Assembly (NCBI RefSeq): GCF_001570525.1
Contig: NZ_BBXC01000033.1
Location: 1-40,180 of the forward strand
Source: Herbidospora sakaeratensis
GTDB lineage: Bacteria > Actinomycetota > Actinomycetes > Streptosporangiales > Streptosporangiaceae
Reading direction: 5' to 3'
Length of the DNA: 40,180 nucleotides
Shown here one piece after another: positions 9,507-24,457 of this stretch. Position 1 is the first letter of the stretch; every line of letters begins with the position of its first letter. The notes beneath the pieces are model-generated. The model made no database searches. It was not told the origin of the DNA and saw only the letters and a list, made by a program, of their open reading frames with translations. The translations under genes were made by a program, and so were the position numbers.

Positions 9507-10482
9507 CCACGATCGGGTGCTCGCCCCGGGGCACCAGCTCGCCGATCACCGGCGCGCCCGGCACCTCGCCGGCGACCAGCAGCCCTCCGGAGGTCTGCGC
9601 GTCGGCGAGCAGGAGCATCGTCTCCTCGTCGGCCCCGCCCGACAGGTGCGGCGCGACCCAGCCGAGGTTGCGGCGCGAGCCCCCGGGCACGAACCCGTCC
9701 CTGAGCGCCTCGCGCGCCCCGTCGAGCAGCGGCACCGCCGCGCTGTCCACCACGGCGGTCACCCCCGAGGCCCTGGCCAGCTTGAACAGGTGACCGAGCA
9801 GCCCGAAGCCGGTCACGTCGGTCGCGCACCGCACCCCCGCCGCGACCGCGGCCTGGCTCGCGGCGGCGTTGAGCCGCGTCATGACCTCGACCGCCTCGGG
9901 GAACACCTCGCCGGTCGCCTTGTGGCGGTTGTTGAGCACGCCGAGACCGAGCGGCTTGGTCAGCGAGAGCGGCAACCCGGCGCGGCCGGCGTCGTTGCGC
10001 ATCAGGGCGGCGGGGTCGGCGAGGCCGGTGACGGCCATGCCGTACTTGGGTTCGGCGTCGACGACGCTGTGCCCGCCCGCCACGTGGCAGCCCGCCTGCG
10101 CGGCCACGTCGGCGCCGCCGCGCAGCACCTCGCGGGCCAGGTCGTACGGCAACGTCTCGCGCGGCCAGCAGAGCAGGTTGAGCGCCATGAGGGGACGGCC
10201 GCCCATGGCGTAGACGTCGGACAGGGCGTTGGCGGCGGCGATGCGGCCCCAGTCGTAGGGGTCGTCCACCACGGGGGTGAAGAAGTCGGCGGTGGCCACG
10301 ACCGCCGTGCCGCCCTCGACGCGGACGACCGCCGCGTCGTCTCCGGTCTCCAGCCCGACCAGCAGTTCTCCGGCGGGATCCTTCGGTGGCACCCCGAGAC
10401 CCGCCAGGACGTCTTCGAGTTCACCGGGTGGGATCTTGCACGCGCAGCCGCCGCCCTGGGCGTATTGGGTCAGTCTCACCAT
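9499..10482 (-). CDS. selD: Selenide, water dikinase SelD
   Basis: SelD makes selenophosphate from selenide and ATP, the selenium donor for Sec-tRNA synthesis. The protein has 327 residues. The glycine-rich active-site loop GGGCACK places Cys13 and Lys16 at the positions of the catalytic Cys17 and Lys20 of the E. coli enzyme; this is the cysteine form, not a selenoprotein. ETGDDAAVV, TADFFTPVVDDPYDWGRIAAANALSDVYAMGG (residues about 65-100, the substrate and metal aspartates) and CATDVTGFGLLGH are family landmarks. ATG at 10482 is used; GTG at 10479 is adjacent and ATG at 10494 is another option. No good Shine-Dalgarno is visible. It is divergent from selA across about 48 bp. Confidence 0.96.
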   Translation of the reverse strand: MVRLTQYAQGGGCACKIPPGELEDVLAGLGVPPKDPAGELLVGLETGDDAAVVRVEGGTAVVATADFFTPVVDDPYDWGRIAAANALSDVYAMGGRPLMALNLLCWPRETLPYDLAREVLRGGADVAAQAGCHVAGGHSVVDAEPKYGMAVTGLADPAALMRNDAGRAGLPLSLTKPLGLGVLNNRHKATGEVFPEAVEVMTRLNAAASQAAVAAGVRCATDVTGFGLLGHLFKLARASGVTAVVDSAAVPLLDGAREALRDGFVPGGSRRNLGWVAPHLSGGADEETMLLLADAQTSGGLLVAGEVPGAPVIGELVPRGEHPIVVS

Positions 10483-10530
10483 GATCGGGATCATTGCGCG
10501 GATCGGCGGATTGGTATATCCCGACTTATC
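10481..10530. promoter_or_regulatory. Compact divergent selD/selA promoter with a 14-bp palindrome
   Basis: Only 48 bp separate the two divergent genes. ATGATC-GG-GATCAT (10481-10494) is a perfect 6-2-6 inverted repeat overlapping the selD start. TATATC at 10515-10520 is a good -10 for selA, with TTGCGC at 10494-10499 as a weak -35 at 15-bp spacing. That would put the selA transcript start at or next to its GTG, so selA is probably leaderless. A regulator acting on the palindrome could affect both genes; none is identified. Confidence 0.4.
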
Positions 10531-11838
10531 GTGACCGACTCGCGGCGCCACATCCCGCGCACCGACGCGCTTCTGAACGATCCCCGCCTCTCCCCCCTGA
10601 TCGAGCTGATGGGACGCGGCCGCGTGAAGGGGGCCGTCCAGGCGGCCCAGCGACGGGCCCGGGAGGGGGAGATCAGCCCCGCCGACGTACCCGACGAGGT
10701 GGTGCGCTCGCTGCCCGGCGGCCCCCGGGAGGTGATCAACGCCACCGGGGTGCTCCTGCACACCAACCTCGGCCGCGCCCCGCTCTCGGCTCCGGCCCTG
10801 GACGCCATCCGCGGCGCGGCCGGCACCACCGACGTCGAGTTCGACCTGGAGACCGGGCGGCGGGCCCGGCGCGGCCGGGCCGCGCTGGCGGCGCTCGCGC
10901 GGGCGGTCCCGGACGCCGAGGCGGTCCACCTCGTCAACAACAACGCCGCCGCGCTGGTGCTGGCCGCGACCACGCTGGCCCAGGGGCGCGAGATCGTGAT
11001 CAGCCGGGGCGAGCTGGTCGAGATCGGCGACGGTTTCCGGCTGCCCGACCTGCTCGCCTCCACCGGGGCCCGCCTGCGCGAGGTCGGCACCACCAACCGC
11101 ACGTCGGTGGCCGACTACGCCGCCGCGATCGGCCCCGCGACCGGATTCGTGCTCAAGGTGCACCCCTCGAATTACCGGATCGAGGGCTTCGCCGCGACGC
11201 CGCCGGTCGGCGAGCTGACCGGGCTGGGCGTGCCGCTGGTCGCCGACATCGGCTCGGGGCTGCTCACGCCCGAACCGCTGCTGCCCGACGAGCCCGACGC
11301 GGCGACCTGGCTCCGCGCGGGCGCCGACCTGGTCACCGCCAGTGGAGACAAGCTGCTCGGCGGTCCGCAGTGCGGCCTGCTGCTCGGGCGGGCCGAGGTG
11401 GTCGAGCGGCTGCGCCGCCACCCGTTGGCCCGCGCCCTGCGGGTGGACAAGCTGACGCTGGCGGCGGTCGAGGCCACCCTCACCCACGCGGCCAACCCGG
11501 CCCGCGAGGCGCTGGCCGCCGACCCGGCCGTCGTGCGCCGCCGCGCCGGCGACCTGGCGCGACGCCTGGCCGAGGCGGGCGTCAAGGCCGAGGCGGTGGA
11601 CACCGAGGCGGCCGTCGGAGGCGGGGGAGCCCCCGGGGTCGGGCTGCCCAGCGCGGCGGTCGCGGTGACCGAGGACCTGGCCGGGCCGCTGCGGACGGGC
11701 GACCCGGCGGTGGTCGGCCGGGTCGAGGGCGGCCGCTGCCTGCTCGACCTGCGCGCGGTCGCGCCGCACCGCGACGACGACCTCTTCGACGCCGTGCTGG
11801 CCGCCGCGGTGGCCATCGGGGTGGCCGCGTGCGGGTGA
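10531..11838 (+). CDS. selA: L-seryl-tRNA(Sec) selenium transferase SelA
   Basis: SelA converts Ser-tRNA(Sec) to Sec-tRNA(Sec) using selenophosphate. The 435-residue protein has the N-terminal tRNA-binding part, then INATGVLLHTNLGRAPLS and the fold-type-I PLP core. The PLP lysine is Lys274 in ASGDKLLGGPQCG. VGTTNRT and KVHPSNYRIEGF are further family signatures. Length is close to that of characterised enzymes. The start is GTG at 10531; no ribosome site precedes it and a -10 sits about 11 bp upstream, so a leaderless message is likely. Its stop overlaps the selB start by 10 nt, giving a coupled selA-selB pair. Confidence 0.96.
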   Translation: MTDSRRHIPRTDALLNDPRLSPLIELMGRGRVKGAVQAAQRRAREGEISPADVPDEVVRSLPGGPREVINATGVLLHTNLGRAPLSAPALDAIRGAAGTTDVEFDLETGRRARRGRAALAALARAVPDAEAVHLVNNNAAALVLAATTLAQGREIVISRGELVEIGDGFRLPDLLASTGARLREVGTTNRTSVADYAAAIGPATGFVLKVHPSNYRIEGFAATPPVGELTGLGVPLVADIGSGLLTPEPLLPDEPDAATWLRAGADLVTASGDKLLGGPQCGLLLGRAEVVERLRRHPLARALRVDKLTLAAVEATLTHAANPAREALAADPAVVRRRAGDLARRLAEAGVKAEAVDTEAAVGGGGAPGVGLPSAAVAVTEDLAGPLRTGDPAVVGRVEGGRCLLDLRAVAPHRDDDLFDAVLAAAVAIGVAACG

Positions 11839-13502
11839 TCGCCACCGCCGGGCACGTCGACCACGGGAAGTCCACGCTGCTGCGGGCGCTCACCGGCATG
11901 GAGCCCGACCGCTGGGAGGAGGAGCGGCGGCGCGGCCTGACCATCGACCTCGGGTACGTGTGGACCGACGGCCTCGCCTTCGTCGACGTGCCCGGCCACG
12001 AACGTTTCGTCGGCAACATGCTGGCGGGGGTCGGCCCGGTCACGGCGGTGCTGTTCGTGGTGGCCGCCGACGCGGGCTGGTCGGTGCAGTCGCGGGAGCA
12101 CCTGGAGATCCTGCACGCCCTGGGCGTCGGCCGGGGCGTGCTCGCCGTCACCCGGTCGGACCTCGCCGACCCCGGACCCGTGCTGGCCGCCTGCCGCGAC
12201 CGGCTGCGCGGCAGCACCCTCGCCGACGTGCCCGCCGTCGCCGTGAGCGCGGTCACCGGAGAGGGTCTGCCCGGCCTGCGCGCCCTGCTGGCCGCGATCC
12301 CCCCGGACGACCCCGCCCCGGAGGCGGACGTGCGCCTGTGGATCGACCGCGTCTTCACCGTCGAGGGGCGGGGGACCGTCGTCACCGGCACACTCGGCGC
12401 GGGCGTGATCCGGGCCGGCGACGTGCTCCGGCTCGGCGGCGACGACGTGCGAATCCGGGGCCTGCACAGTCTGAACGAGGCGAAGACCGAGGTCGCCGCG
12501 CCCGCGCGGGTCGCGGTGAATTTGCGCGGCGGCGCGCGTCCCCGGCGCGGCCACACCCTGCTGACCCCGGGACGCTGGCTCGACGTCGAGGTGCTCGACG
12601 TCCGGGTCTCCGGCGAGGGCCGTCCGCCGGAGCAGGTGACCTGGCACCTCGGCACCGCCGCCGAACCCGCGCGGCTGCGCGCCCTCGGCGAGGACACGGT
12701 GCGGGTGACCCTGCCCCGGCCGCTGCCCGTGCGGGTCGGCGACCGGGCGCTGCTGCGCGACCCGGGCAGCCGCCGGGTGTGGGGGGCGGTGGTGCTCGAC
12801 GTGCGCCCGCCGGAGTTGCGCCGCCGGGGCGCGGCCCGGGCGCGGGCGGCCGACCTCGCCGGCATGTCCGGCGTGCCGGACGGCGTCGCCGAGTTGCGGC
12901 GGCGCGGCCTGGCCCGGCGCGACGACCTGGCCGCCATGGGCACGCCCGTCGACGCCGACCCGGTCGCGGGGGACTGGCTCGCCGATCCCGACCACTGGGC
13001 CGGGCTCCGCCACCGCCTCGCCGAGGTCGTGGCCGGGCGGCCGGGCCTGGCGGCGGAGACCGCGCGGCAACTGCTCGGCCTGCCCGACCGGGCGCTGGTC
13101 GACGCCCTCGCCGAGGGCGCCGCCGTCCGCACGGTGCGCGGGCGGCTGTTCCGGCCGGCCCGCACGCCCGGGGTCGACGAACTGCGGCGCGGCTGGGCCG
13201 CCGATCCGTTCGCGGCGCCGGACGCGGCCCGGCTCGCGGAACTCGGGCTCGACCGGCGGGCGCTGGCGGCGGCCGAGGCGGCGGGCGAACTCGTCCAGCT
13301 CGCCCCCGGCGTCGTGCTGCCGCCCGGAGCGGCCGAGGAGGCGGCCGAGGTGCTCGCCCGGTTGCCCCGGCCGTTCACCGTGGCGCAGGCGCGGACCGCG
13401 CTGAACACCACCCGCCGGGTCGTCGTCCCGCTCCTGGAGCACCTCGACCGGCTCGGCCTCACCCGCCGCCAGGACACCGCTGGTTCCAGAACTTTTCTCT
13501 GA
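11829..13502 (+). CDS. selB: Selenocysteine-specific elongation factor SelB
   Basis: SelB is the GTPase that carries Sec-tRNA(Sec) to ribosomes paused at a UGA followed by a SECIS hairpin. The 557-residue protein begins ATAGHVDHGKST (P-loop, residues 5-16), then GLTIDLGY (switch I), DVPGHERF (switch II), TRSD in place of NKxD, and VSAVTGEG. Two beta-barrel domains follow, then a winged-helix C-terminal region that in family members reads the SECIS RNA. GTG at 11829 overlaps the selA stop. The tRNA-Sec gene starts 14 bp after the SelB stop, so selA-selB-selC form one block. No formate dehydrogenase is seen in the window, so the client must be elsewhere or be the TGA-containing gene at 16139. 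Confidence 0.96.
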   Translation: MRVIATAGHVDHGKSTLLRALTGMEPDRWEEERRRGLTIDLGYVWTDGLAFVDVPGHERFVGNMLAGVGPVTAVLFVVAADAGWSVQSREHLEILHALGVGRGVLAVTRSDLADPGPVLAACRDRLRGSTLADVPAVAVSAVTGEGLPGLRALLAAIPPDDPAPEADVRLWIDRVFTVEGRGTVVTGTLGAGVIRAGDVLRLGGDDVRIRGLHSLNEAKTEVAAPARVAVNLRGGARPRRGHTLLTPGRWLDVEVLDVRVSGEGRPPEQVTWHLGTAAEPARLRALGEDTVRVTLPRPLPVRVGDRALLRDPGSRRVWGAVVLDVRPPELRRRGAARARAADLAGMSGVPDGVAELRRRGLARRDDLAAMGTPVDADPVAGDWLADPDHWAGLRHRLAEVVAGRPGLAAETARQLLGLPDRALVDALAEGAAVRTVRGRLFRPARTPGVDELRRGWAADPFAAPDAARLAELGLDRRALAAAEAAGELVQLAPGVVLPPGAAEEAAEVLARLPRPFTVAQARTALNTTRRVVVPLLEHLDRLGLTRRQDTAGSRTFL

Positions 13503-13515
13503 TAGCGTTACCATC

Positions 13516-13608
13516 GGGGACGTGCAGGTGCCTGGTGGCCCTCCCGGTCTTCAAAACCGGTGGCGCCGAGGATCTCGGCGCGGCGGGTTCGATTCCCGTC
13601 CGTCTCCG
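13516..13608 (+). tRNA. selC: tRNA-Sec (anticodon TCA)
   Basis: The anticodon arm is CCGGT-CTTCAAA-ACCGG with anticodon TCA. The variable arm is very long: GCGCCGAG-GAT-CTCGGCGC, an 8-bp stem typical of tRNA-Sec. The T-arm is GCGGG-TTCGATT-CCCGT. The acceptor pairs GGGGACG (13516-13522) with CGTCTCC (13601-13607), with one G:U pair; the eighth pair expected in bacterial tRNA-Sec would be T:C and looks unpaired. The discriminator is G and CCA is not encoded. It sits directly after selB. Confidence 0.95.
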
Positions 13609-13637
13609 CTGCGCTCCCCAGAGTCGGCTGGAGTTCC

Positions 13638-14387
13638 ATGAGATTTCTCCTGCTCGGGCACTTCGAAATCCACCGGCCGGACGGCAGTCAGCTGTCCGTG
13701 ACCAGGATCAAGCACCGCCAGCTCCTCGCCCTCCTGCTGCTCGACGCGCCCCACACGGTCTCGACCGAACGCTGCATCGCCGCCCTGTGGGGTGACGCCG
13801 CCCCGCCCTCGGCGCGGCGCAACCTGCAGACGTACATCGCGGACCTGCGCAAGGGGCTGGCCTGCTCCGGCGTCGAGATCCGGACCGTGCCCGGCGGCTA
13901 CCGGGTGACCGACGTCGAAGACCGGCTCGACCTGGCCGACTTCGAGGCCGCGCGGTCGGCCGCGGCCGCCGCCCTGGCCGAGCGCGACGACGCCGAGGCG
14001 GCCCGCCTGCTCAGAGACGGCCTCGCCCTCTGGCGCGGCGGCGCGCTGCAGGACCTCGCCGACAGCTCCGAGGCGCTGCGCAACGCCGCCACCCGGCTCG
14101 ACGAACGCCGCACGGCCGCCGTCGGCGACTTCGCCGGCGCGTGCATCCGCCTGGGGAACTACGACGAGGCCATCGACCAGCTCCGGGTCGCGGTCGCGCG
14201 CGTCCCGCTGCGCGAGGACCTGCGGGCGCGGCTGATGCTGGCCCTGCACAAGAGCGGCCGCCGGGCCGACGCGCTGCTGGCCTACCACGACTGCCGGGCG
14301 GCGCTGGTCGAGCACATCGGCGTCGGGCCGTCGGCCACGCTGACGGCGCTGCACGACCGCATCCTCATGGAGGACGCGAGCCTGTGA
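13638..14387 (+). CDS. SARP-type transcriptional activator (OmpR-like winged helix plus BTAD)
   Basis: The protein has 249 residues in two parts. Residues about 1-90 form an OmpR/PhoB-like winged helix (RFLLLGHFEI, KHRQLLALLLLD, RRNLQTYIADLRKGL). Residues about 95-245 form a bacterial transcriptional activation domain of TPR-like helices, ending in LRARLMLALHKSGRRADALLAYHDCRAALVEHIGVGPSATL, of which the SGRRADALLAY part is the family fingerprint. This is the minimal SARP layout with no NB-ARC domain. The start ATG at 13638 follows GGAG; the longer frame would run back into the tRNA gene and is rejected. SARPs activate pathway-specific operons by binding direct heptamer repeats, and such repeats lie 12 bp after this gene. 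It therefore probably drives the redox operon that follows. Confidence 0.9.
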   Translation: MRFLLLGHFEIHRPDGSQLSVTRIKHRQLLALLLLDAPHTVSTERCIAALWGDAAPPSARRNLQTYIADLRKGLACSGVEIRTVPGGYRVTDVEDRLDLADFEAARSAAAAALAERDDAEAARLLRDGLALWRGGALQDLADSSEALRNAATRLDERRTAAVGDFAGACIRLGNYDEAIDQLRVAVARVPLREDLRARLMLALHKSGRRADALLAYHDCRAALVEHIGVGPSATLTALHDRILMEDASL

Positions 14388-14452: not shown

Positions 14453-15124
14453 ATGTTAGCGCGAACACCTGACGGCCGTACGCTCACCGTGGACGGCAGC
14501 CCGCAGCCCTTCACCATGGGCTGGAGCTATCTGTTCTGGGCGCGGAACGACAACGGCGCCCAGCGTTTCCACACCGGCGCGGCCGGGGCGCGCGAGCTCA
14601 TCGCCCGCCACATCGGCGAGTACGACCGGTTCACCGTGCGCGAGGCGTCGTGGAACGGGGCCCGGCTGGTCTCCCACGAGGACCCCGAGAACGCCGGCAC
14701 GACCATGGTGTGGATCGGGCCGCACCACGAGGTCTACACCTTCATCCAGGGCACCAACGTGCCGTTCGAGGTGTTCATCGGCCTGCTCGCCGCCTTCGAC
14801 ATCCGCGACGCCCCCGAAGGCGTCGTGCTGGCCCCCCGGATCGGCTCGCGGGTGCGCACCGACGGCCTGCTGGCGGTCAACAGCCTGGAGGGCGTCTGCT
14901 CGATCCAGGTGAACCCGGCCGGCGCGCTGCCCACGCCCGGCGGCACCGGCAAGAAGGTGCGCGGCGGCGCGTTGTGGAAACGCGAGGAGCGGGCCGACGA
15001 CGGACGGGTGCTGCGCTCGGCCATCCTGGTCAACACCTCGACGACCACGATCCTCACCGCACGGGACGCCGACGACCCCCGCTTCGCGGCCGTCGCCGAC
15101 TCCCTCACGTGCGGGCTGAGCTGA
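14453..15124 (+). CDS. Unknown protein, first gene of the SARP-controlled redox operon
   Basis: I do not recognise this 223-residue protein. It has no signal peptide or membrane segment and is predicted cytoplasmic. Segments such as FTMGWSYLFWARND, TTMVWIGPHHEVYTFIQG and VLVNTST-like ends suggest a mixed alpha/beta soluble fold. Two cysteines are near the middle and the C-terminus (GVCSIQV, LTCGLS). The second codon is TTA, which would make expression depend on the bldA tRNA. No Shine-Dalgarno is visible; GTG at 14447 is an alternative start. The gene follows the heptamer repeats directly and is followed by the thioredoxin-like gene after 5 bp, so it belongs to that operon. No function is claimed. 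Confidence 0.75.
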   Translation: MLARTPDGRTLTVDGSPQPFTMGWSYLFWARNDNGAQRFHTGAAGARELIARHIGEYDRFTVREASWNGARLVSHEDPENAGTTMVWIGPHHEVYTFIQGTNVPFEVFIGLLAAFDIRDAPEGVVLAPRIGSRVRTDGLLAVNSLEGVCSIQVNPAGALPTPGGTGKKVRGGALWKREERADDGRVLRSAILVNTSTTTILTARDADDPRFAAVADSLTCGLS

Positions 15125-15129
15125 CCGCC

Positions 15130-15639
15130 GTGCAGAACGTCGTCAATTCCCTGGCCGTGTTCGCCTTCCTCGGCATGGTGATCGCCCTGTTCGCGATCTC
15201 CGCCCTGCTCAGGATCGTGCGCGAGCTCCAGCAGGCGGTGCTGGCCGCCCCCGCCACCCCCGGTCCCGACTCCGTCCGGAAGGTGGCCCGGTTCGCCTCC
15301 TCCGACGGCCGGCCGACCTTCGTCCTCGTGGTCTCGGAACAGTGCCCGAGCTGCCGGGCCCGGGCCGTCCATCTGGCCGGGATGCCGCCCGGCCGGGTCG
15401 GCGGCCACACGGTCCTGCTCGCGGCGGCCGAGGCGTGCGCGGCCTGGGTCGAAGCGGCCCCGCACGTCGAGGCCGTCGTCGACGCCGACCTGCTCGGCTC
15501 GGTCGCGGTCGGCGCGACCCCCTCTCTCGTCAAGTACGCACCCGACGGCGCCGAGGAGTGGCGCCGCGTGGTCGGGTCCGACCCGGACCTCGACCGGCTC
15601 CTCGGGGTGGATCTGCCCGAATCGTCGAACGTGAGGTGA
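15130..15639 (+). CDS. Membrane-anchored thioredoxin-like protein (MauD-like)
   Basis: The 169-residue protein has one N-terminal membrane segment (residues about 6-32) and an extracytoplasmic thioredoxin-like domain with the redox motif CPSC in VSEQCPSCRARAV. The cis-proline region is ATPSLV, as expected for the fold. This is the build of MauD, which handles disulfides of the methylamine dehydrogenase small subunit outside the membrane. A MauE-like protein is encoded two genes downstream, and a secreted six-cysteine protein lies between them as a plausible client. GTG at 15130 is preferred; GTG at 15109 is possible. The Mau relationship rests on architecture and gene context. Confidence 0.8.
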   Translation: MQNVVNSLAVFAFLGMVIALFAISALLRIVRELQQAVLAAPATPGPDSVRKVARFASSDGRPTFVLVVSEQCPSCRARAVHLAGMPPGRVGGHTVLLAAAEACAAWVEAAPHVEAVVDADLLGSVAVGATPSLVKYAPDGAEEWRRVVGSDPDLDRLLGVDLPESSNVR

Positions 15640-15644
15640 ACGAC

Positions 15645-16142
15645 ATGTCCCGCGACTACTGGTCCGACGTGCCGGCCGCGGACGAGGACGCGGAGGCGCG
15701 TCCGCCGGTCCGGGTCCGGGTGTCGCGGCGCACGATGGTCAAGTCGGTCGGCGTGCTCGGCGGCGCGCTGGCGCTGAACGTGGTGGGCGCCCTGCCGCCC
15801 GCCCGCGTGCGGACCGCCTCGGCGACCGTGGGCTCGGAGTGGTCGACCTGCTCGAACAGCGGCTACGCCAACTTCGACGGCTACAAGGACGGCACCACCC
15901 AGCGGGTGTGCGTGGGCGGGTCGTACGCCAGCAGCTACTGCGGCAGCGACGGCTGGTTCCGCACCGACGGCAACGCCTACTCCTACTACACGCCGATCGT
16001 CGAGTGCGGCGCGAGCGGGGTCTCCAAGAAGAACGCCTGGCGCTGGACGCACGGCAGCACCCCCTACCGCTGCGCCGACGGCCGCTTCGTCGTGTACGGC
16101 GCGGGCAGCTCCTTCTACATCTGCTCCCGGGCCAACCCGTGA
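15645..16142 (+). CDS. Tat-exported six-cysteine small protein (possible MADH light-chain analogue)
   Basis: The 165-residue protein has an acidic N-terminus, then a Tat signal (VSRRTMVKSVGVLGG, hydrophobic stretch, processing near TASA). The mature part of about 105 residues is rich in Tyr, Ser, Gly and Trp and has six cysteines (STC, RVC, SYC, VEC, YRC, YIC), enough for three disulfides, plus four tryptophans. Tat export of a small disulfide-rich protein next to MauD- and MauE-like genes resembles the methylamine dehydrogenase light chain, which carries tryptophan tryptophylquinone. However, it has half the usual cysteines and the WVASCYN-type motif is not evident, so I do not call it MADH. 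The start has a strong GAGGTGA site. Its stop overlaps the next gene (GTGA). Confidence 0.75.
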   Translation: MSRDYWSDVPAADEDAEARPPVRVRVSRRTMVKSVGVLGGALALNVVGALPPARVRTASATVGSEWSTCSNSGYANFDGYKDGTTQRVCVGGSYASSYCGSDGWFRTDGNAYSYYTPIVECGASGVSKKNAWRWTHGSTPYRCADGRFVVYGAGSSFYICSRANP

Positions 16143-16852
16143 GCCTGCCCGCCACCCGCACCGCCGGTCTCCTCTTCGTCCTGACGGCGCTCGTGGCGGC
16201 GGCCGGCGCGGTCTGGCCGGGCCGGCTCGACTTCCTCGCCTGGGCGTTGATGGGCGTGGTCGCCGGGTTCTCGTTGTCCGGCTCGGTTTGAAGCCTCAAC
16301 TCAGCGGATCTGCTGACCTCGCCGGTCTGGCGGGGACAACTCACGGCGTTCTCGTCCGGCCTGGTGCTGGGCGGGCTGGTGTCGGGCACGGTCGCGGGAG
16401 CCTTCGGCGGCCTCGTCTCGGTGGTGCCGGAGGCCGGCCGCACCTGGGCGCTGATCCCGGTCGCGGCGGTGCTGCTCGCCTTCGAGCTGGCCGGGCGGCC
16501 ACTGTCGCTGATCCAGAACCGCAGGCTGGTGCCGCAGGAGATCATCCCGCGCAGCCGGTTCGAGGGTCCCTTCCAGTTCGGCTTCGAGATGGGCACCGGC
16601 GTGCGCACGTTCTCGCCGACCGCGCTCCCGCACGCCCTGGTGCTCACGATCGTGCTCGTCGGCGGCCTGCTCCCGGGGGTGCTGGCCGGGCTCGGGTTCG
16701 GCCTGGGCCGGGTGCTGATGCCGCTCACCCGGTCGCTCAGCGGCGACCCGGCGCGGTGGGACCGCCGCCTGCTGGGCGGCCTCGCCTGGGTGGGCCGGTG
16801 GTGCGCGGCGGGGTTCCTGGCCGCGCTGCTGGTCCTGCTCCTGGGGTGGTGA
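16139..16852 (+). CDS. Candidate selenoprotein: multi-pass membrane protein with in-frame TGA at 16289
   Basis: The frame from GTG at 16139 to TGA at 16850 is interrupted once, by TGA at 16289-16291 (codon 51). Both sides are coding: third positions are G or C before it, and in 21 of the 25 codons between the TGA and the next possible start, GTG 16364, which has no ribosome site. Read as selenocysteine, the product is 237 residues with membrane segments around residues 8-27, 30-48, about 66-90, 95-115 and later ones near the C-terminus; the Sec falls in GFSLSGSV-U-SLNSADLL, just after the second segment. A SECIS-like hairpin follows at 16317. The complete selA-selB-selC-selD set lies under 7 kb away and thiol-redox genes flank it. 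The alternative is a nonsense-broken pseudogene. Family not recognised. Confidence 0.75.
16317..16335 (+). promoter_or_regulatory. SECIS-like hairpin after the in-frame TGA
   Basis: CCTCGCC (16317-16323) pairs over seven positions with GGCGGGG (16329-16335), one of them T:G, around a GGTCT loop. The first loop G is 33 nt after the last base of the TGA, inside the 16-37 nt range described for bacterial SECIS elements, and the loop has the required leading G pair. GGTCT also occurs in the apical region of the E. coli fdhF SECIS. A smaller nearby stem TCAGC-GGATCT-GCTGA (16301-16316) also has a GG-leading loop. Structure is seen by eye; function is inferred. Confidence 0.65.
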
Positions 16853-16855
16853 TCG

Positions 16856-17353
16856 ATGATCCTGGTCGCCGACGTGGCCCTGGCCGGCGCGCTGCTCCTC
16901 GTCGCGGCGGTGTTCCTCGGCGCTCCGGAGGTCACGCGCGGGCACGGGCTGCTGCCCTCCTGGGCGATCCGCGCCGCCGCCGTGGCCGGGCCGGTGCTCG
17001 GCGTCGCGGTGGTCGCGTGCTGGCTCGGGGGAGTCCCGGGGCGGTACGTCTGGGCAGCGGCCGCGGGGTGGCACGCCGCGCTGGCCGGGTATCTCCTGAT
17101 CCTGCTGCGGGTACGCGGCCGGGTCCCGTGCGGCTGCCTCGACGCCGTCACCCCGGTGTCCCCGGCGAAAGCGGGCATCGGGATCGGGTGGGCCGCCGCG
17201 AGCGCCGTGATGGCGGCGGGCGCGGTCGCTCCGCCGGAGACCGTGACCGTCCGCCTGCTGCACCTGGCCCTGGCCGGGTTCGCGGCACTGCTGGCCGTCG
17301 TCGCGGCGTCGGTGCTGTCGATGACGTCGTCCCCTCGAAGGAGGACCAGATGA
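16856..17353 (+). CDS. MauE-like integral membrane redox protein
   Basis: The 165-residue protein has four to five membrane segments and the signature VPCGCLDAVTPVSPAKAG at residues about 91-108, which matches the PCGCFG...PVS pattern of MauE/DoxX-like membrane proteins. MauE proteins are thought to pass reducing equivalents across the membrane to MauD-type thioredoxins. ATG at 16856 lies 3 bp after the preceding stop behind a GGTGGTGA-like site. Its stop overlaps the lipoprotein start (ATGA). With the CPSC thioredoxin and the candidate selenoprotein it completes a membrane relay for extracytoplasmic thiols. The family call comes from the CGC motif and layout. Confidence 0.82.
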   Translation: MILVADVALAGALLLVAAVFLGAPEVTRGHGLLPSWAIRAAAVAGPVLGVAVVACWLGGVPGRYVWAAAAGWHAALAGYLLILLRVRGRVPCGCLDAVTPVSPAKAGIGIGWAAASAVMAAGAVAPPETVTVRLLHLALAGFAALLAVVAASVLSMTSSPRRRTR

Positions 17354-17859
17354 GCCGATGGGTGCTGGTCGCCGCCGTCGCGGCGACCGGGCTGTCCGCC
17401 TGCACCGGGGAGCCGGCGCCGGTTGCGGTCAGTCCTCCGCCGCCGCAGGTGCTGCTCGACGCGGCGCAGCTGCCCGGCGGGCCCTGGACGTCCGGCGCGA
17501 CCGGCGACACCCGCTGGGCCGACCTCGACGAGGCGCTGGTGCCCTGCGGGAAACGCGGCATCGCCCCGGCGGACGCCCGGGTGCGGTTCCGGGTCTTCGC
17601 GTCGGAGGGCGGCGGGTCGGTCTCGGAGGTCGTGGTGTCCGGTACGGACGTCTTCCAGACCTTCAAGCGCTTCTACGCCGAGTGCTCCTCGGCGGGGAAG
17701 GTGGAGTCGCGGCCCGGCCCGGCCACCGAAGTGACGCGCGACGGCACGACGGAGATCGCCGTGTTCACCGACGACCACCTGGTCGTCGTCAGCGGCCCGG
17801 GAGACGACCTCGCCGCGATCGGCGAGGCCGCCCGTGAACAGGCCGCGAAGGCGGGCTGA
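17350..17859 (+). CDS. Secreted lipoprotein of unknown function
   Basis: The 169-residue protein begins with a lipoprotein signal peptide and lipobox LSAC (Cys at residue 17), so it should be anchored outside the membrane. The mature part has a Pro-rich linker (VSPPPPQ), LDAAQLPGGPW, and two further cysteines (VPCGKR, AECSSAG) that could form a disulfide. The overall pattern recalls PknH-sensor-like or uncharacterised actinobacterial lipoproteins, but I cannot place it. It is the last gene of the operon and is followed directly by a strong hairpin. It may be a partner or reporter of the redox relay; that is context only. Confidence 0.8.
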   Translation: MSRWVLVAAVAATGLSACTGEPAPVAVSPPPPQVLLDAAQLPGGPWTSGATGDTRWADLDEALVPCGKRGIAPADARVRFRVFASEGGGSVSEVVVSGTDVFQTFKRFYAECSSAGKVESRPGPATEVTRDGTTEIAVFTDDHLVVVSGPGDDLAAIGEAAREQAAKAG

Positions 17860-19802: not shown

Positions 19803-22616
19803 ATGTCCCGACGTCCGTGGCTCAGGATGCTGACCACATTGGCGCTCATCGCGCCGGCCGTCGTCGCGCTCTCCGCATCACCGGCGAACGCGCTGACCAT
19901 CTCGGCCTCCGACTACCAGCAGATCTCGCTCGCCTCGGGCGGGAACGAGCTGGGCGAGGCGATGTCACTGGCCGTGATGCCGAACCGCTCGGTCATCCAC
20001 ACCTCCCGCGACGGCACGGTCCGGGTGACCGACGTCAACGGCAACACCAAGGTGGCCGCCCGGCTGAACGTCTACACCCACGACGAGGAGGGCCTCCAGG
20101 GGGTGGCGGTCGACCCGAACTTCGCGACCAACCGCTACGTCTGGCTCTACTACTCGCCCCGGCTGAGCACCGGCACCGGCGACGCCCCCGCGACCGGCAA
20201 CCAGTCGCAGTTCGACGCGTGGAAGGGTGAACTGTACCTGTCCAGGTTCACCCTGAACTCCGACGACACCCTCAACACCTCCAGCGAGAAGGTGGTCCTG
20301 CGGGTCGCCAACGACCGGGGCCAGTGTTGCCACGTGGGCGGTGACATCGACTTCGACGCCCAGGGCAACCTCTACCTGACCACGGGCGACGACACCAACC
20401 CGTTCGAGTCGAGCGGCTACTCCCCGCTGGACGAGCGCACCAACCGCAACCCGCAGTACGACGCCCAGCGCACCTCCGCCAACTCCAACGACCTGCGCGG
20501 CAAGCTCCTGCGCATCACCCCGCAGGCCGACGGCACCTACACGATCCCCAGCGGCAACATGTTCGCGCCGGGCACGGCGAACACCCGTCCGGAGATCTAC
20601 GCGATGGGCTTCCGCAACCCGTTCCGGATGAGCGTCGACAAGGCGACCGGCGTCGTCTACCTCGGCGACTACGGCCCGGACGCCGGATCGTCCAACTCCA
20701 ACCGGGGCCCGAGCGGCCAGGTGGAGTTCAACCGGGTCACCGGTCCGGGCTTCTACGGATGGCCGTACTGCACGGGGAGCAACTCCACCAGCGAGACGTA
20801 CAACGAGTGGAACTTCTCCAGCAACAGCACCGGCAACAAGTACAACTGCTCCGGCGGCGCGACCAACAACTCCTTCCGCAACACCGGCATCCAGACCCTG
20901 CCCGCGGCCAAGCCCGCGTGGATCCGGTACGCCGGTGACTCCGGCTCGCCCTCGGAGTTCGGCTCCGGCTCCGAGTCGCCGATGGGCGGCCCGGTCTACC
21001 GCTACGACGCCAACCTGAACTCCGCGGTGAAGTTCCCCTCGACCCTCAACGGGCGCTTCTTCGCCGGCGAGTACGGCCGCCGCTGGATCAAGGCCATCGA
21101 GGTGACCTCCTCCGGCGGCTACGGCGAGATCTCCGCCTTCCCCTGGTCGGGCACGCAGGTCATGGACATGGCCTTCGGCCCCGACGGCGCGCTGTACGTG
21201 CTCGACTACGGCACCGGCAACAACAACCAGGCCCTGTTCCGGATCGAGTACATCGGCCAGGCCAACCGCAACCCGATCGCGCGGGCCTCGTCCGACAAGA
21301 CCTCCGGGGCGGCCCCGCTGACCGTGCAGTTCTCCTCGTCGGGCAGCTCCGACCCCGAGGGCGGCTCGCTGACGTACTCGTGGAACTTCGGCGACGGCAC
21401 CACCTCCACCGCCGCCAACCCGAGCAAGACCTACTCGGCCAACGGCGCCTACACCGCCACGCTCACCGTCCGCGACCCGCAGGGCCTGACCGGCAGCGCC
21501 AGCGTGAGCGTGACCGTGGGCAACACCGCCCCGGTGGTCACGCTCGGCAATCCCGGCAACGGCCAGCTGTTCTCCTTCGGCGACACGGTCCCGTTCCAGG
21601 TCAGCGTGAGCGACCCGGAGGACGGCGCCATCGACTGCTCGAAGGTGTCGGTGACCTACTTCCTGGGTCATGACAGCCACGCCCACCAGATCACCTCGCA
21701 GACCGGCTGCAGCGGCTCCATCACCGTGCCGGTCGACGGCGAGCACGACTCGGCGGCGAACATCTTCGGCGTCTTCACCGCCTCCTACACCGACAACGGC
21801 GGCCTGACCTCCACCAGCAGCCGCACCCTCCAGCCGAAGCGCCGGCAGGCCGAGCACTTCGGCGCCATGCAGGGCGTGCAGACGACCGACAAGACCACCG
21901 CCGAGGGCGGCAAGACGGTGGGCTTCATCGAGGACGGCGACTGGATCTCCTTCACGCCCTACAACCTGAGCAACGCCACGAGCTTCACCGCGCGGGTGTC
22001 CTCGGCGGGCTCGGGCGGCCGGATCGAGGTCCGGGCGGGCTCGGCCACGGGCACGCTGCTGGGCACCGCGACCGTCGCGGCGACCGGCGGCTGGGAGACC
22101 TTCGCCAACGTCACGGCGAACCTCAGCGGCGCGCCGTCCGGAGCCACGACGCTGTACCTCGTCTTCCGCGGCACCGCCGGGGGTTACCTGTTCGACCTCG
22201 ACGCCTACACCTTCACCACCGGCACGTCGTCGAGCACCACGAGCACGTTCCGGGGAACCGCGTCGAACCGGTGCCTCGACGTCAACGGCGCCTCGTCGGC
22301 CAACGGCGCGCTGGCCCAGATCTGGGACTGCAACGGCCAGACGAACCAGCAGTGGACCACCACCAGCGCCACCGAGATGCGGGTGTACGGCAACAAGTGC
22401 CTCGACGTGAGCGGCGCCGGCACGGCCGACGGCACCGCGGTGCTCATCTGGGACTGCAACGGCCAGAACAACCAGAAGTGGCGGCTGAACTCCGACGGCA
22501 CCATCACCGCCGTCGGCGCGAACAAGTGTCTGGAGGTCAACGGCACCGCCAACGGCACCAAGGCGCGCATCTGGACCTGCAACGGCGGTTCGAACCAGAA
22601 GTGGACCCGGGTCTGA
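19803..22616 (+). CDS. Secreted multidomain sugar dehydrogenase: GSDH propeller, PKD, CBM6-like and ricin-type domains
   Basis: The 937-residue protein has a signal peptide (cleavage near PANA). Residues about 35-495 form a glucose/sorbosone dehydrogenase-like beta-propeller (EGLQGVAVDPNF, CCHVGGDIDFDAQGNLYLTTGD, AMGFRNPFRMSVD, GEYGRRWIKAIEV), a family that uses PQQ in soluble glucose dehydrogenases. A PKD domain follows (about 498-575, YSWNFGDGTTSTAANPSKTY), then an Ig-like stretch, a CBM6-like module (about 680-800, AEHFGAMQGVQ, GFIEDGDWISF), and a C-terminal ricin trefoil (about 815-937). It likely oxidises sugars bound at cell walls or plant polymers; cofactor and substrate are inferred. 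The next gene is related in domain style and probably co-transcribed. Confidence 0.9.
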   Translation: MSRRPWLRMLTTLALIAPAVVALSASPANALTISASDYQQISLASGGNELGEAMSLAVMPNRSVIHTSRDGTVRVTDVNGNTKVAARLNVYTHDEEGLQGVAVDPNFATNRYVWLYYSPRLSTGTGDAPATGNQSQFDAWKGELYLSRFTLNSDDTLNTSSEKVVLRVANDRGQCCHVGGDIDFDAQGNLYLTTGDDTNPFESSGYSPLDERTNRNPQYDAQRTSANSNDLRGKLLRITPQADGTYTIPSGNMFAPGTANTRPEIYAMGFRNPFRMSVDKATGVVYLGDYGPDAGSSNSNRGPSGQVEFNRVTGPGFYGWPYCTGSNSTSETYNEWNFSSNSTGNKYNCSGGATNNSFRNTGIQTLPAAKPAWIRYAGDSGSPSEFGSGSESPMGGPVYRYDANLNSAVKFPSTLNGRFFAGEYGRRWIKAIEVTSSGGYGEISAFPWSGTQVMDMAFGPDGALYVLDYGTGNNNQALFRIEYIGQANRNPIARASSDKTSGAAPLTVQFSSSGSSDPEGGSLTYSWNFGDGTTSTAANPSKTYSANGAYTATLTVRDPQGLTGSASVSVTVGNTAPVVTLGNPGNGQLFSFGDTVPFQVSVSDPEDGAIDCSKVSVTYFLGHDSHAHQITSQTGCSGSITVPVDGEHDSAANIFGVFTASYTDNGGLTSTSSRTLQPKRRQAEHFGAMQGVQTTDKTTAEGGKTVGFIEDGDWISFTPYNLSNATSFTARVSSAGSGGRIEVRAGSATGTLLGTATVAATGGWETFANVTANLSGAPSGATTLYLVFRGTAGGYLFDLDAYTFTTGTSSSTTSTFRGTASNRCLDVNGASSANGALAQIWDCNGQTNQQWTTTSATEMRVYGNKCLDVSGAGTADGTAVLIWDCNGQNNQKWRLNSDGTITAVGANKCLEVNGTANGTKARIWTCNGGSNQKWTRV
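22395..22499 (+). repeat. Ricin-domain DNA repeat, copy 2
   Basis: This segment is 104/105 identical to the reverse complement of 19046-19150. A more diverged direct copy is at 24230-24334; the second half of that copy is identical to this one. Confidence 0.85.
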
Positions 22617-22693: not shown

Positions 22694-24457
22694 ATGCTGC
22701 GACATCTGACCTCTGCCGCCGCGCTCAGGCGCCTGGCGGTGACCGCGGTGGCGCTGGCCACCGCCGCCGCCGCGACGGTGATCCCGGCGGTCCCCGCCCA
22801 CGCCGCCTCCTACAAGGTGCTGGTCTTCTCCAAGACGGCCGGCTTCCGGCACGACTCGATCGCGGTCGGCACCCAGGCCATCCGCGACCTCGGCGCGGCC
22901 AACGACTTCACCGTCGACGCCACCGAGGACTCCAGCGCCTTCAACACCTCCAACCTCTCCCAGTACAAGGCGGTGGTGTTCCTCAGCACGACCGGCGACG
23001 TGCTGAACGACACCCAGCAGTCGGCCTTCCAGTCCTACGTGGACGGCGGCGGCGGTTACGTCGGCGTGCACGCGGCCGCCGACACCGAGTACAACTGGTC
23101 GTACTACGGGCAGCTGGTGGGCGCCTGGTTCAACAGCCACCCCGCCATCCAGCAGGCCACCGTCCGCAACGAGGACCGGGCCCACCCGGCCACCTCCCAC
23201 CTGGGCACGACCTGGTCGCGCACCGACGAGTGGTACAGCTACCGCAGCAACCCCCGCCCGAACGTGCGCGTCCTGCAGAACCTGGACGAGAGCACCTACA
23301 GCGGCGGCGGCATGGGCGATCACCCGATCACCTGGTGCCACCCGCAGTCGAACGGCCGCGCGTTCTACACCGGCCTCGGCCACACGCAGGAGTCGTACTC
23401 CGACTCCAACTTCCGCACCCTGCTGCTGGGCGGCATCAAGTACGCGGCCAAGGCGGCCAACGCCGACTGCCGTCCCGAGACCGGCTACACCGCGCTGTAC
23501 AACGGCTCGACGACGGGCTGGCAGCAGGTCGGTCCCGGCTCGTTCTCCAACAGCCAGTCCACGCTGACCTCCTCGGGCGGCATGGGCATGTTGTGGTACA
23601 GCACCAAGCAGTTCGGGTCGTACTCGCTCAAGCTCGACTGGAAGCTGACCGGCGACTCCAACTCGGGCGTCGTCGTGGGCTTCCCCGCCCCGGGCAGCGC
23701 CCAGGGGGCGCTCGACACCGGGCACGAGGTGCAGATCGACGCCACCGACAGCGCCGACAGGACGACCGGCGCGATCTACGGCTTCAAGGCGGCCGACATC
23801 ACCGCCCGTGACGCGGCCCTGAACCCGCCGGGTCAGTGGAACACCTACGAGCTGCTGGTCCAGGGCGAGCGGCTGCAGGTGTTCCTGAACGGGACCAAGA
23901 TCAACGACTTCACCAACACCGACGCCAACCGCTCGCTCACCCAGGGGTACATCGGCGTCCAGAACCACGGGTCCCCCGACGTGGTGCAGTACCGCAACAT
24001 CCGCATCAAGGAACTGACCACCGTGACGCCCTCGCCGTCCCCGTCGCCGTCTCCGTCGGCCTCGCCGGGCACCACCAGCGCCCTGCGCGGGGTGGCGTCC
24101 AACCGGTGCCTGGACATCAGCGGCGCGTCGCAGGCGAACGGCGCCGTGGTGCAGATCTGGGACTGCAACGGCCGCGCCAACCAGCAGTGGACCTCCACGA
24201 GCGCCAGTGAGCTTCGGGTGTACGGCAACAAGTGCCTCGACGTCAGCGGCAACAGCACCGCCAACGGGGCCACGGTCAGCATCTGGGACTGCAACGGCCA
24301 GAACAACCAGAAGTGGCGGCTGAACTCCGACGGCACCATCACCGCCATCGGCGCGAACAAGTGCCTGGACATCGTGGGCTCCGGCACCGCCAACGGTTCA
24401 CGGCTGCAGATCTACACCTGCCACGGCGGCAACAACCAGAAGTGGACCCGGGTCTGA
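22694..24457 (+). CDS. Secreted ThuA-like / DUF1080 protein with C-terminal ricin-type CBM13
   Basis: The 587-residue protein has a signal peptide (cleavage near AHAAS). Residues about 38-255 form a ThuA-like (trehalose-utilisation, glutamine-amidotransferase-like) domain with VLVFSKTAGFRHDSI, GGGGYVGVHAAADTE and GRAFYTGLGHT. Residues about 270-440 form a DUF1080 jelly roll (3-keto-disaccharide hydrolase-like; GYTALYNGSTTGWQQ, WKLTGDSNSGVVVGF, GHEVQIDATD). [15 protein letters not shown] linker leads to a ricin trefoil. ThuA and DUF1080 proteins act on 3-keto sugars made by sugar dehydrogenases, and a secreted dehydrogenase is encoded just upstream, so an oxidise-then-cleave extracellular pathway is plausible. 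The exact substrate is unknown. Confidence 0.9.
   Translation: MLRHLTSAAALRRLAVTAVALATAAAATVIPAVPAHAASYKVLVFSKTAGFRHDSIAVGTQAIRDLGAANDFTVDATEDSSAFNTSNLSQYKAVVFLSTTGDVLNDTQQSAFQSYVDGGGGYVGVHAAADTEYNWSYYGQLVGAWFNSHPAIQQATVRNEDRAHPATSHLGTTWSRTDEWYSYRSNPRPNVRVLQNLDESTYSGGGMGDHPITWCHPQSNGRAFYTGLGHTQESYSDSNFRTLLLGGIKYAAKAANADCRPETGYTALYNGSTTGWQQVGPGSFSNSQSTLTSSGGMGMLWYSTKQFGSYSLKLDWKLTGDSNSGVVVGFPAPGSAQGALDTGHEVQIDATDSADRTTGAIYGFKAADITARDAALNPPGQWNTYELLVQGERLQVFLNGTKINDFTNTDANRSLTQGYIGVQNHGSPDVVQYRNIRIKELTTVTPSPSPSPSPSASPGTTSALRGVASNRCLDISGASQANGAVVQIWDCNGRANQQWTSTSASELRVYGNKCLDVSGNSTANGATVSIWDCNGQNNQKWRLNSDGTITAIGANKCLDIVGSGTANGSRLQIYTCHGGNNQKWTRV
24230..24334 (+). repeat. Ricin-domain DNA repeat, copy 3 (diverged)
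   Basis: This is the same ricin subdomain as at 22395-22499. The 3' half, from the ATCTGGGACTGC region on, is identical, while the 5' half differs at many third and some first positions. The patchwork suggests partial gene conversion. Confidence 0.75.

Follow-up and report, generated by a model that had tools for sequence, protein, structure and literature searches.

A predicted selenocysteine-containing MauF-family membrane protein encoded near the Sec machinery of Herbidospora sakaeratensis

The window analysed here, a stretch of 40,180 bp from contig C33 (NZ_BBXC01000033.1) of the 8.6 Mb genome of the soil actinobacterium Herbidospora sakaeratensis, contains an otherwise continuous reading frame that is split by a single TGA. 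Is this TGA a stop codon or a codon for selenocysteine (Sec), and what kind of protein would be made if it is read through? The preliminary description of the locus placed the TGA at 16289 in the frame 16139-16852, reported a 7-bp stem with a GGTCT loop 32 nt past it and a complete selABCD set upstream, and proposed that codon 51 specifies Sec. The split frame, the hairpin and all four sel genes were recovered inside the window:

9565-10476, reverse strand: selD, matched part (TIGR00476, 395.3 bits)
10546-11838, forward strand: selA, start approximate (TIGR00474, 413.8 bits; PF03841)
11838-13502, forward strand: selB, start approximate (TIGR00475, 235.9 bits, narrowly missing the cut-off of 242.25; longer frame 10494-13502)
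13516-13609, forward strand: selC, tRNA-Sec (Infernal, 76 bits)
16139-16852, forward strand: putative MauF-family selenoprotein gene (Sec-MauF), 237 codons read through UGA, 237 aa
16289-16291, forward strand: in-frame UGA, predicted Sec at codon 51 (TGA in 39 of 39 rows of alignment A3)
16317-16335, forward strand: SECIS-type hairpin, 7-bp stem, loop GGUCU at 16324-16328, 32 nt past the UGA

The gene starts with GTG at 16139, overlapping the stop of the preceding gene. Searches of Pfam, NCBIfam and PDB sequences assigned the window protein to no family, and it contains neither a UxxC nor a CxxU motif.

The TGA was followed through samples of increasing breadth. In a first search of 100 genomes, the window's own included, the family was matched in 17; 16 of the matches have the in-frame TGA, the seventeenth being a fragment that starts past the place, and most of these members share the motif SGSV-U-[ST]xNS around the Sec. 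A profile of 12 members (A1), used for the order-wide search, gave 103 placements in 89 of 297 genomes, the window's own among them, and 101 of these placements have one in-frame TGA. The place itself was read in the 30 placements with loci, the remaining 73 being stop counts; two of these 73 were read later, one being the latter half of a copy broken by a frameshift and the other an additional copy without the N-terminal part. In the phylum sample, the family was matched in 34 of 396 genomes, again including the window's own. A one-genome-per-species scan gave 187 loci, the best 80 of which were retained; it used two peptide patterns, one of which was spelled with Cys at the place and so gave no advantage to TGA copies. 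The closest named relatives of the window, among these best 80 of 187 loci, are Herbidospora species at 92-95% identity.

Altogether, 157 HMM placements in 155 loci, drawn from overlapping and non-independent sets, were read at the Sec place. The profile reading gave U 137, C 3, R 1, A 1 and gap 15, and direct reading of the proteins showed that the R, the A and nine of the gaps are U misaligned by the profile and that one gap is C; the resolved counts for these overlapping placements are U 148, C 4 and five unreadable (L017, L047, L050, L075 and L096, which are fragmentary, masked or decayed). A Cys or Sec at position 51 of homologues, which the preliminary description had named as supporting evidence, was thus found in all placements that could be read, and TGA occurs at every place read outside the four distant Cys members (L051, L054, L061 and L063). 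The motif of the distant members is [SGD]PUGxS[ML] or SGUGLSM, and the lowest identity between a TGA member and the window protein is about 20% in the alignments made. The TGA is conserved well past chance expectation.

A divergent second form of the motif, ATAUGMNAAG, was seen in locus L084 (8351-9001, reverse strand) near an ordinary copy, and L016 (1507-2136) bears the further form GTAUGMNAAG. The hairpin of this divergent form fails the bSECIS model as coded here, and the form may represent a sister family with another SECIS.

A pseudogene or a sequencing error would also yield a split frame, and damaged copies exist: one in genome G242 (contig C26, sequence identical with L096) lacks the N-terminal part, and one in G328 is frameshifted. 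Decay of the frame in relatives, foreseen in the preliminary description as a sign of a pseudogene, was not observed apart from these two copies. An identical TGA recurs in many genera, and dN/dS between the window gene and five relatives is 0.13-0.20 downstream of the TGA; upstream of it, the values range from 0.09 to 0.51. Purifying selection is indicated on both sides of 16289-16291, and the probability of a pseudogene or error is practically negligible. GTT serves as the Val50 codon (16286-16288), directly before the UGA, in 26 of 28 rows with Val, although the genomes are GC-rich; the U preceding the UGA may matter for decoding. An annotated Nonomuraea record shows no features beneath the family match, which is uninformative because its PLSDB table has just 10 features in total.

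The occurrence of the family was compared with that of tRNA-Sec (RF01852). In the order sample, a match over the Rfam cut-off was found in 191 of 297 genomes, and every one of the 89 family genomes matches at E 3.7e-13 or better (Fisher p 4e-22); some of the 191 are perhaps ordinary tRNAs that barely pass, in which case the Fisher test is conservative. The sole sampled Herbidospora genome without the family, G006, also lacks a strong tRNA-Sec match (1.8e-8). The phylum sample allows a comparison of Sec and Cys forms. Leaving the window's genome aside, it holds 33 family genomes: a TGA copy is present in 24 (established at the place itself in 22, by stop count in G575 and G641), Cys in four, and five are untypable. 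With a line at 56 bits, which was set post hoc with the scores already seen, 23 of the 24 TGA genomes and none of the four Cys genomes have a tRNA-Sec match (p 2.4e-4). The exception, G483, is a TGA genome that is 87% complete and has a best match of 51.0 bits; the best matches in the Cys genomes score 45.4-50.9 bits, two of them (48.7 and 50.9 bits) formally exceeding Rfam's 47-bit cut-off. Within one taxonomic family (f71), the contrast runs as expected, with 48.7 bits in the Cys genome G468 against 70.6 bits in the Sec genome G617.

These results bear on two other readings of the codon. TGA is the default stop in bacteria, so the locus could consist of two overlapping genes or use regulated termination that yields a short peptide; however, protein conservation continues across the TGA, the first start codon past it shifts position between loci, Cys stands at the place in MauF (see below) and tRNA-Sec co-occurs with the family, all of which makes a genuine stop very unlikely. 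The TGA might otherwise be read as Trp or by near-cognate read-through, a reading for which no supporting evidence was found in the data described here; the sense codon at the place is Cys in four of four actinobacterial members and in eight of eight MauF proteins, the family genomes have tRNA-Sec, and this possibility appears highly improbable.

The hairpin at 16317-16335 has a predicted energy of -11.8 kcal/mol, and none of 200 shuffled sequences was equally stable; a longer fold of 67 nt is less distinctive (z -1.28; 21 of 200 shuffles equally stable). The bSECIS model given in the available text of PMC13188914 specifies a loop of 3-9 nt, a G in the first two positions of the loop, a spacing of 16-37 nt and an energy of -7.5 kcal/mol or lower; it was coded here with the added requirement of an uninterrupted stem of 4 bp or more. 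The model was passed by 68 of 74 distinct close members and by 16 of 18 distant ones, the latter set drawn from the 23 distant loci in which a TGA had been read; L016 and L070 are the distant members that fail, and the energy limit was missed by 8 of the 92 members tested. The proposal of a SECIS-like hairpin stood in this respect, but hairpins of this type are common: among the TGAs on both strands of the window, 180 of 754 pass and 45 are equally strong, so that the window hairpin alone is weak evidence. What counts is the persistence of the hairpin in distant members under other stem sequences; there, it lies 29-33 nt after the UGA, and the stems are quite different (CCCCGCUCGGGGAGCGGGG, CUCCCCGGUCGGGGAG, CCCCCGUGGUCCACGGGGG). 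In the close set, 91% of stem cells pair in 68 indel-free sequences, compared to 39-63% when the pairing is slid (four sequences with indels were left out, and a wrong TGA in L140 was excluded); the inner pairs of the close set are mostly invariant and therefore carry little information by themselves. Within the stem, all 35 sequences encode Ser61 by TCG, and this is the sole Ser, Leu, Arg, Gly, Ala, Val, Pro or Thr site tabulated that lacks synonymous variation. Taken with the conserved TGA, the Cys homologues and the co-occurrence of tRNA-Sec, the persisting hairpin strongly supports the prediction that codon 51 specifies Sec.

The identity of the protein emerged from a neighbour. In the distant locus L188, the neighbouring protein P0010, which occupies the position of the window's MauD-like protein, was found to match genes annotated as MauD (E 3e-27), and this match led to mau clusters on plasmids of Paracoccus, Indioceanicola, Novosphingobium and Cupriavidus. 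A tblastn search of the plasmid records with MauE and one distant selenoprotein gave no matches. An hhalign comparison of the family profile A2 with alignment A6, composed of annotated MauF from three of the plasmid records, gave a probability of 99.7% and E 1.3e-25 (a single comparison) over 196 columns, in a register where the Sec falls on the Cys of STWSPCGYSS (the SPCG Cys). The close family alone (A3) gave 96.7% and E 3.3e-10, also in a single comparison, with the register unchanged, and a single BLASTP comparison of L197 with L074 gave E 9e-13. The SPCG Cys is present in eight of eight MauF proteins read. A quick tree of 82 proteins requires four Sec/Cys changes and places MauF among the distant actinobacterial members; support for this position is moderate (SH-aLRT 84), and the branches are long. 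We assign the window protein to the MauF family, with a predicted selenocysteine replacing the cysteine. The preliminary description, which proposed a selenoprotein of an undescribed family, did not recognise the kinship with MauF: the selenoprotein family appears to be new, but the protein family is a known one, with Cys at the same place.

AlphaFold2 modelling from the window and named-locus sequences, with Cys modelled for Sec, gave a pLDDT of 93.7 and a pTM of 0.91. The predicted structure shows two helix breaks: residue 51 is located at the one that separates helices 31-44 and 50-59, and the other, flanked by helices 142-153 and 163-174, bears the conserved GTGVRT. A Foldseek search with this model found no significant PDB match.

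Other identities were considered. A resemblance to YeeE/YedE was examined before CcdA, and MauF explains more. Of ten distant proteins scanned, three have a DsbD_TM or DsbD_2 match below the cut-off (best 20.9 bits vs 24.9). The hhalign comparison with CcdA gave 86.5%, with the Sec on the first CcdA Cys; when the close family was compared by itself, the value was 0.4%. The Sec-MauF family does not conserve the second CcdA Cys. As an identity, CcdA was ranked below MauF because of the weaker profile match and the missing second Cys.

The preliminary description also placed the gene in a MauD/MauE-like redox operon, and the neighbours agree with this:

14453-15124, forward strand: conserved operon-head gene, start approximate (matched in 40 of the best 80 named loci)
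15109-15639, forward strand: MauD-like protein with an N-terminal hydrophobic stretch and CPSC, start GTG at 15109 or 15130 (labelled by anatomy and place)
15645-16142, forward strand: secreted protein, Cys-rich (six conserved Cys), with a Tat-type leader and conserved Trp (weak TAT_signal match)
16856-17353, forward strand: MauE (PF07291, E 5.4e-8) with CGC (matched in 20 of the best 80 named loci)
17350-17859, forward strand: lipoprotein-like gene, ATGA overlap with mauE (matched in 16 of the best 80 named loci)

These counts were made with single window proteins as queries, which divergent loci may escape, and a match anywhere in the locus was counted. The MauD-like window protein has no Pfam match; as a single-sequence query it matched in 33 of the best 80 named loci, and the Cys-rich protein matched in 36. 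In an alignment of 18 sequences of the latter, five Cys are invariant and one nearly so, and three Trp are invariant; its structural model is poor (pLDDT 57.7). Kinship of the Cys-rich proteins with MauA was not supported, the match of the window protein being limited to the leader and that of the L190 protein not being credible. Between selC and the operon, at 13638-14387, lies a gene for a SARP-type regulator (BTAD domain) that may control the operon. Farther downstream, 19803-22616 and 22694-24457 encode two large proteins with C-terminal lectin-type matches below curated cut-offs, and the first of them also has a PQQ-dehydrogenase-like match below the curated cut-off.

A similar neighbourhood is found in distant relatives. 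In L070, the selenoprotein is fused to a MauE domain (PF07291, E 1.8e-18), and L072 has a C-terminal extension judged MauE-like by eye. Eight distant loci were fetched and four followed by Pfam: MauE occurs in L186, L190 and L191, a MauD homologue in L188, a MauD-like protein in L186, and Tat-type Cys-rich proteins, recognised by eye save for a weak TAT_signal match in L190, in L188, L190 and L191. The neighbour set was not seen by simple gene picking in L187, L189, L192 and L193; of these, L192 and L193 have the Cys form. The cysteine motifs correspond as well, MauE having CGC and MauD CPVC in Paracoccus, and the window proteins having CGC and CPSC. The Cys-rich Tat-type neighbour of the Cys-form homologue in L190 (3203-4597) carries LGFP repeats (PF08310). 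Such repeats are a cell-wall type of domain, a hint as to the final location of such substrates.

The methylamine dehydrogenase heavy chain (PF06433) was matched in none of the 71 family genomes tested (0/24 and 0/47); of the controls, three of three mau-bearing plasmid records matched and 14 control genomes did not. Because of this absence, maturation of methylamine dehydrogenase is not the task of the family, and the MauE, MauD-like and Cys-rich neighbours hence suggest that MauF, MauE and MauD form a module that depends on Sec and serves a secreted Cys-rich protein rather than amine oxidation. According to the available text of PMC7794033, which cites van der Palen 1997, there has been speculation that MauE acts in disulfide formation of the dehydrogenase subunit.

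The explanation we prefer, at a probability of roughly 80%, is a MauF-family membrane protein with Sec as its single conserved redox residue and a role in a disulfide relay. The UGA at codon 51 would be decoded by SelB and tRNA-Sec, directed by the hairpin just downstream, and the Sec would occupy the position of the SPCG cysteine of proteobacterial MauF. Located at the membrane-helix break, Sec51 would form short-lived selenenylsulfide bonds with two partners, MauE through its CGC and the MauD-like protein through its CPSC; electrons would thereby cross the membrane, making or correcting disulfides (up to three) in the Tat-type Cys-rich protein, the probable substrate judging from its place and its cysteines. 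The Sec could also be real but serve a CcdA-like importer of reductant, in which electrons from cytoplasmic thioredoxin pass through the Sec and reach the MauD-like protein, serving repair or peroxide defence, with the Cys-rich neighbour as a redox partner and not a folding substrate. The hhalign similarity to CcdA, the position of the Sec on its first Cys and the DsbD-type matches in distant proteins speak for such an importer, but the family has one conserved redox residue against the two of CcdA, the similarity vanishes when the close family is compared alone, and Foldseek found no significant fold match; we consider the importer unlikely, though worth keeping in mind.

Sec-MauF may also help to explain why some of these bacteria retain Sec machinery. 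According to the available text of PMC5029168, there are organisms with Sec machinery and seemingly no known selenoproteins; these were mostly ascribed to incomplete genomes, and the possibility of undiscovered selenoprotein genes was left open. Formate dehydrogenase (TIGR01553) was searched for in 80 genomes (79 of the 89 family genomes and G006) and exceeded the cut-off in 58; it was not found above the cut-off in six Herbidospora genomes (G000-G005, the window's included), all of which have the family and tRNA-Sec. The KCU-star selenoprotein scored over the cut-off in none of 32 genomes. Sec-MauF is a candidate reason for the Sec machinery where known selenoproteins seem absent. A wider proposal, that an Actinomycetota-wide selenium-dependent Sec-MauF/MauE/MauD system matures Tat-exported Cys-rich proteins unrelated to methylamine and is also the main reason why lineages lacking formate dehydrogenase, such as Herbidospora, keep the Sec machinery, stands in our estimate at even odds.

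In the literature searched, Sec-MauF is an undescribed selenoprotein family within a known protein family. The available part of the 2026 review PMC13188914 includes a table of 119 entries that has no MauF-like entry, no such family appears in the available part of the deep-Sep paper (PMC12013277), and MauF was not found as a selenoprotein in the main texts of open-licence literature. A widespread selenoprotein family would thus be absent from the 2026 table, with Sec in an integral membrane protein. Annotation that takes the UGA as a stop would truncate these genes, and the occurrence of relatives of MauF and MauE apart from methylamine dehydrogenase points to a general module for the maturation of secreted proteins.

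Compared to bacterial selenoproteins generally (119 families and subfamilies in the accessible table of PMC13188914), the window gene shares the UGA, a bSECIS-type hairpin within 16-37 nt and the Sec machinery, and differs in lacking UxxC/CxxU motifs and in belonging to a MauF-type family, a kind not represented in that table. The YeeE/YedE selenoprotein, a membrane transporter by name, has a single Sec in the same table, but its motif is GUxSG, compared with SGSVUS or SPUGxSM here, and PF04143 was not matched by the window protein. The transmembrane domain of CcdA/DsbD shows weak full-length profile similarity, with its first Cys aligned with the Sec; the window family has no second membrane Cys, and the scores remain below the Pfam cut-offs. 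The nearest system is MauF of Paracoccus, Methylobacterium and Indioceanicola, which is collinear over the 196 aligned columns, with the predicted Sec on the SPCG Cys and MauE and MauD encoded nearby; MauF has Cys at this place, whereas the window family would have Sec, and its genomes, free of heavy-chain matches where tested, hold another Cys-rich neighbour in the place of MauA.
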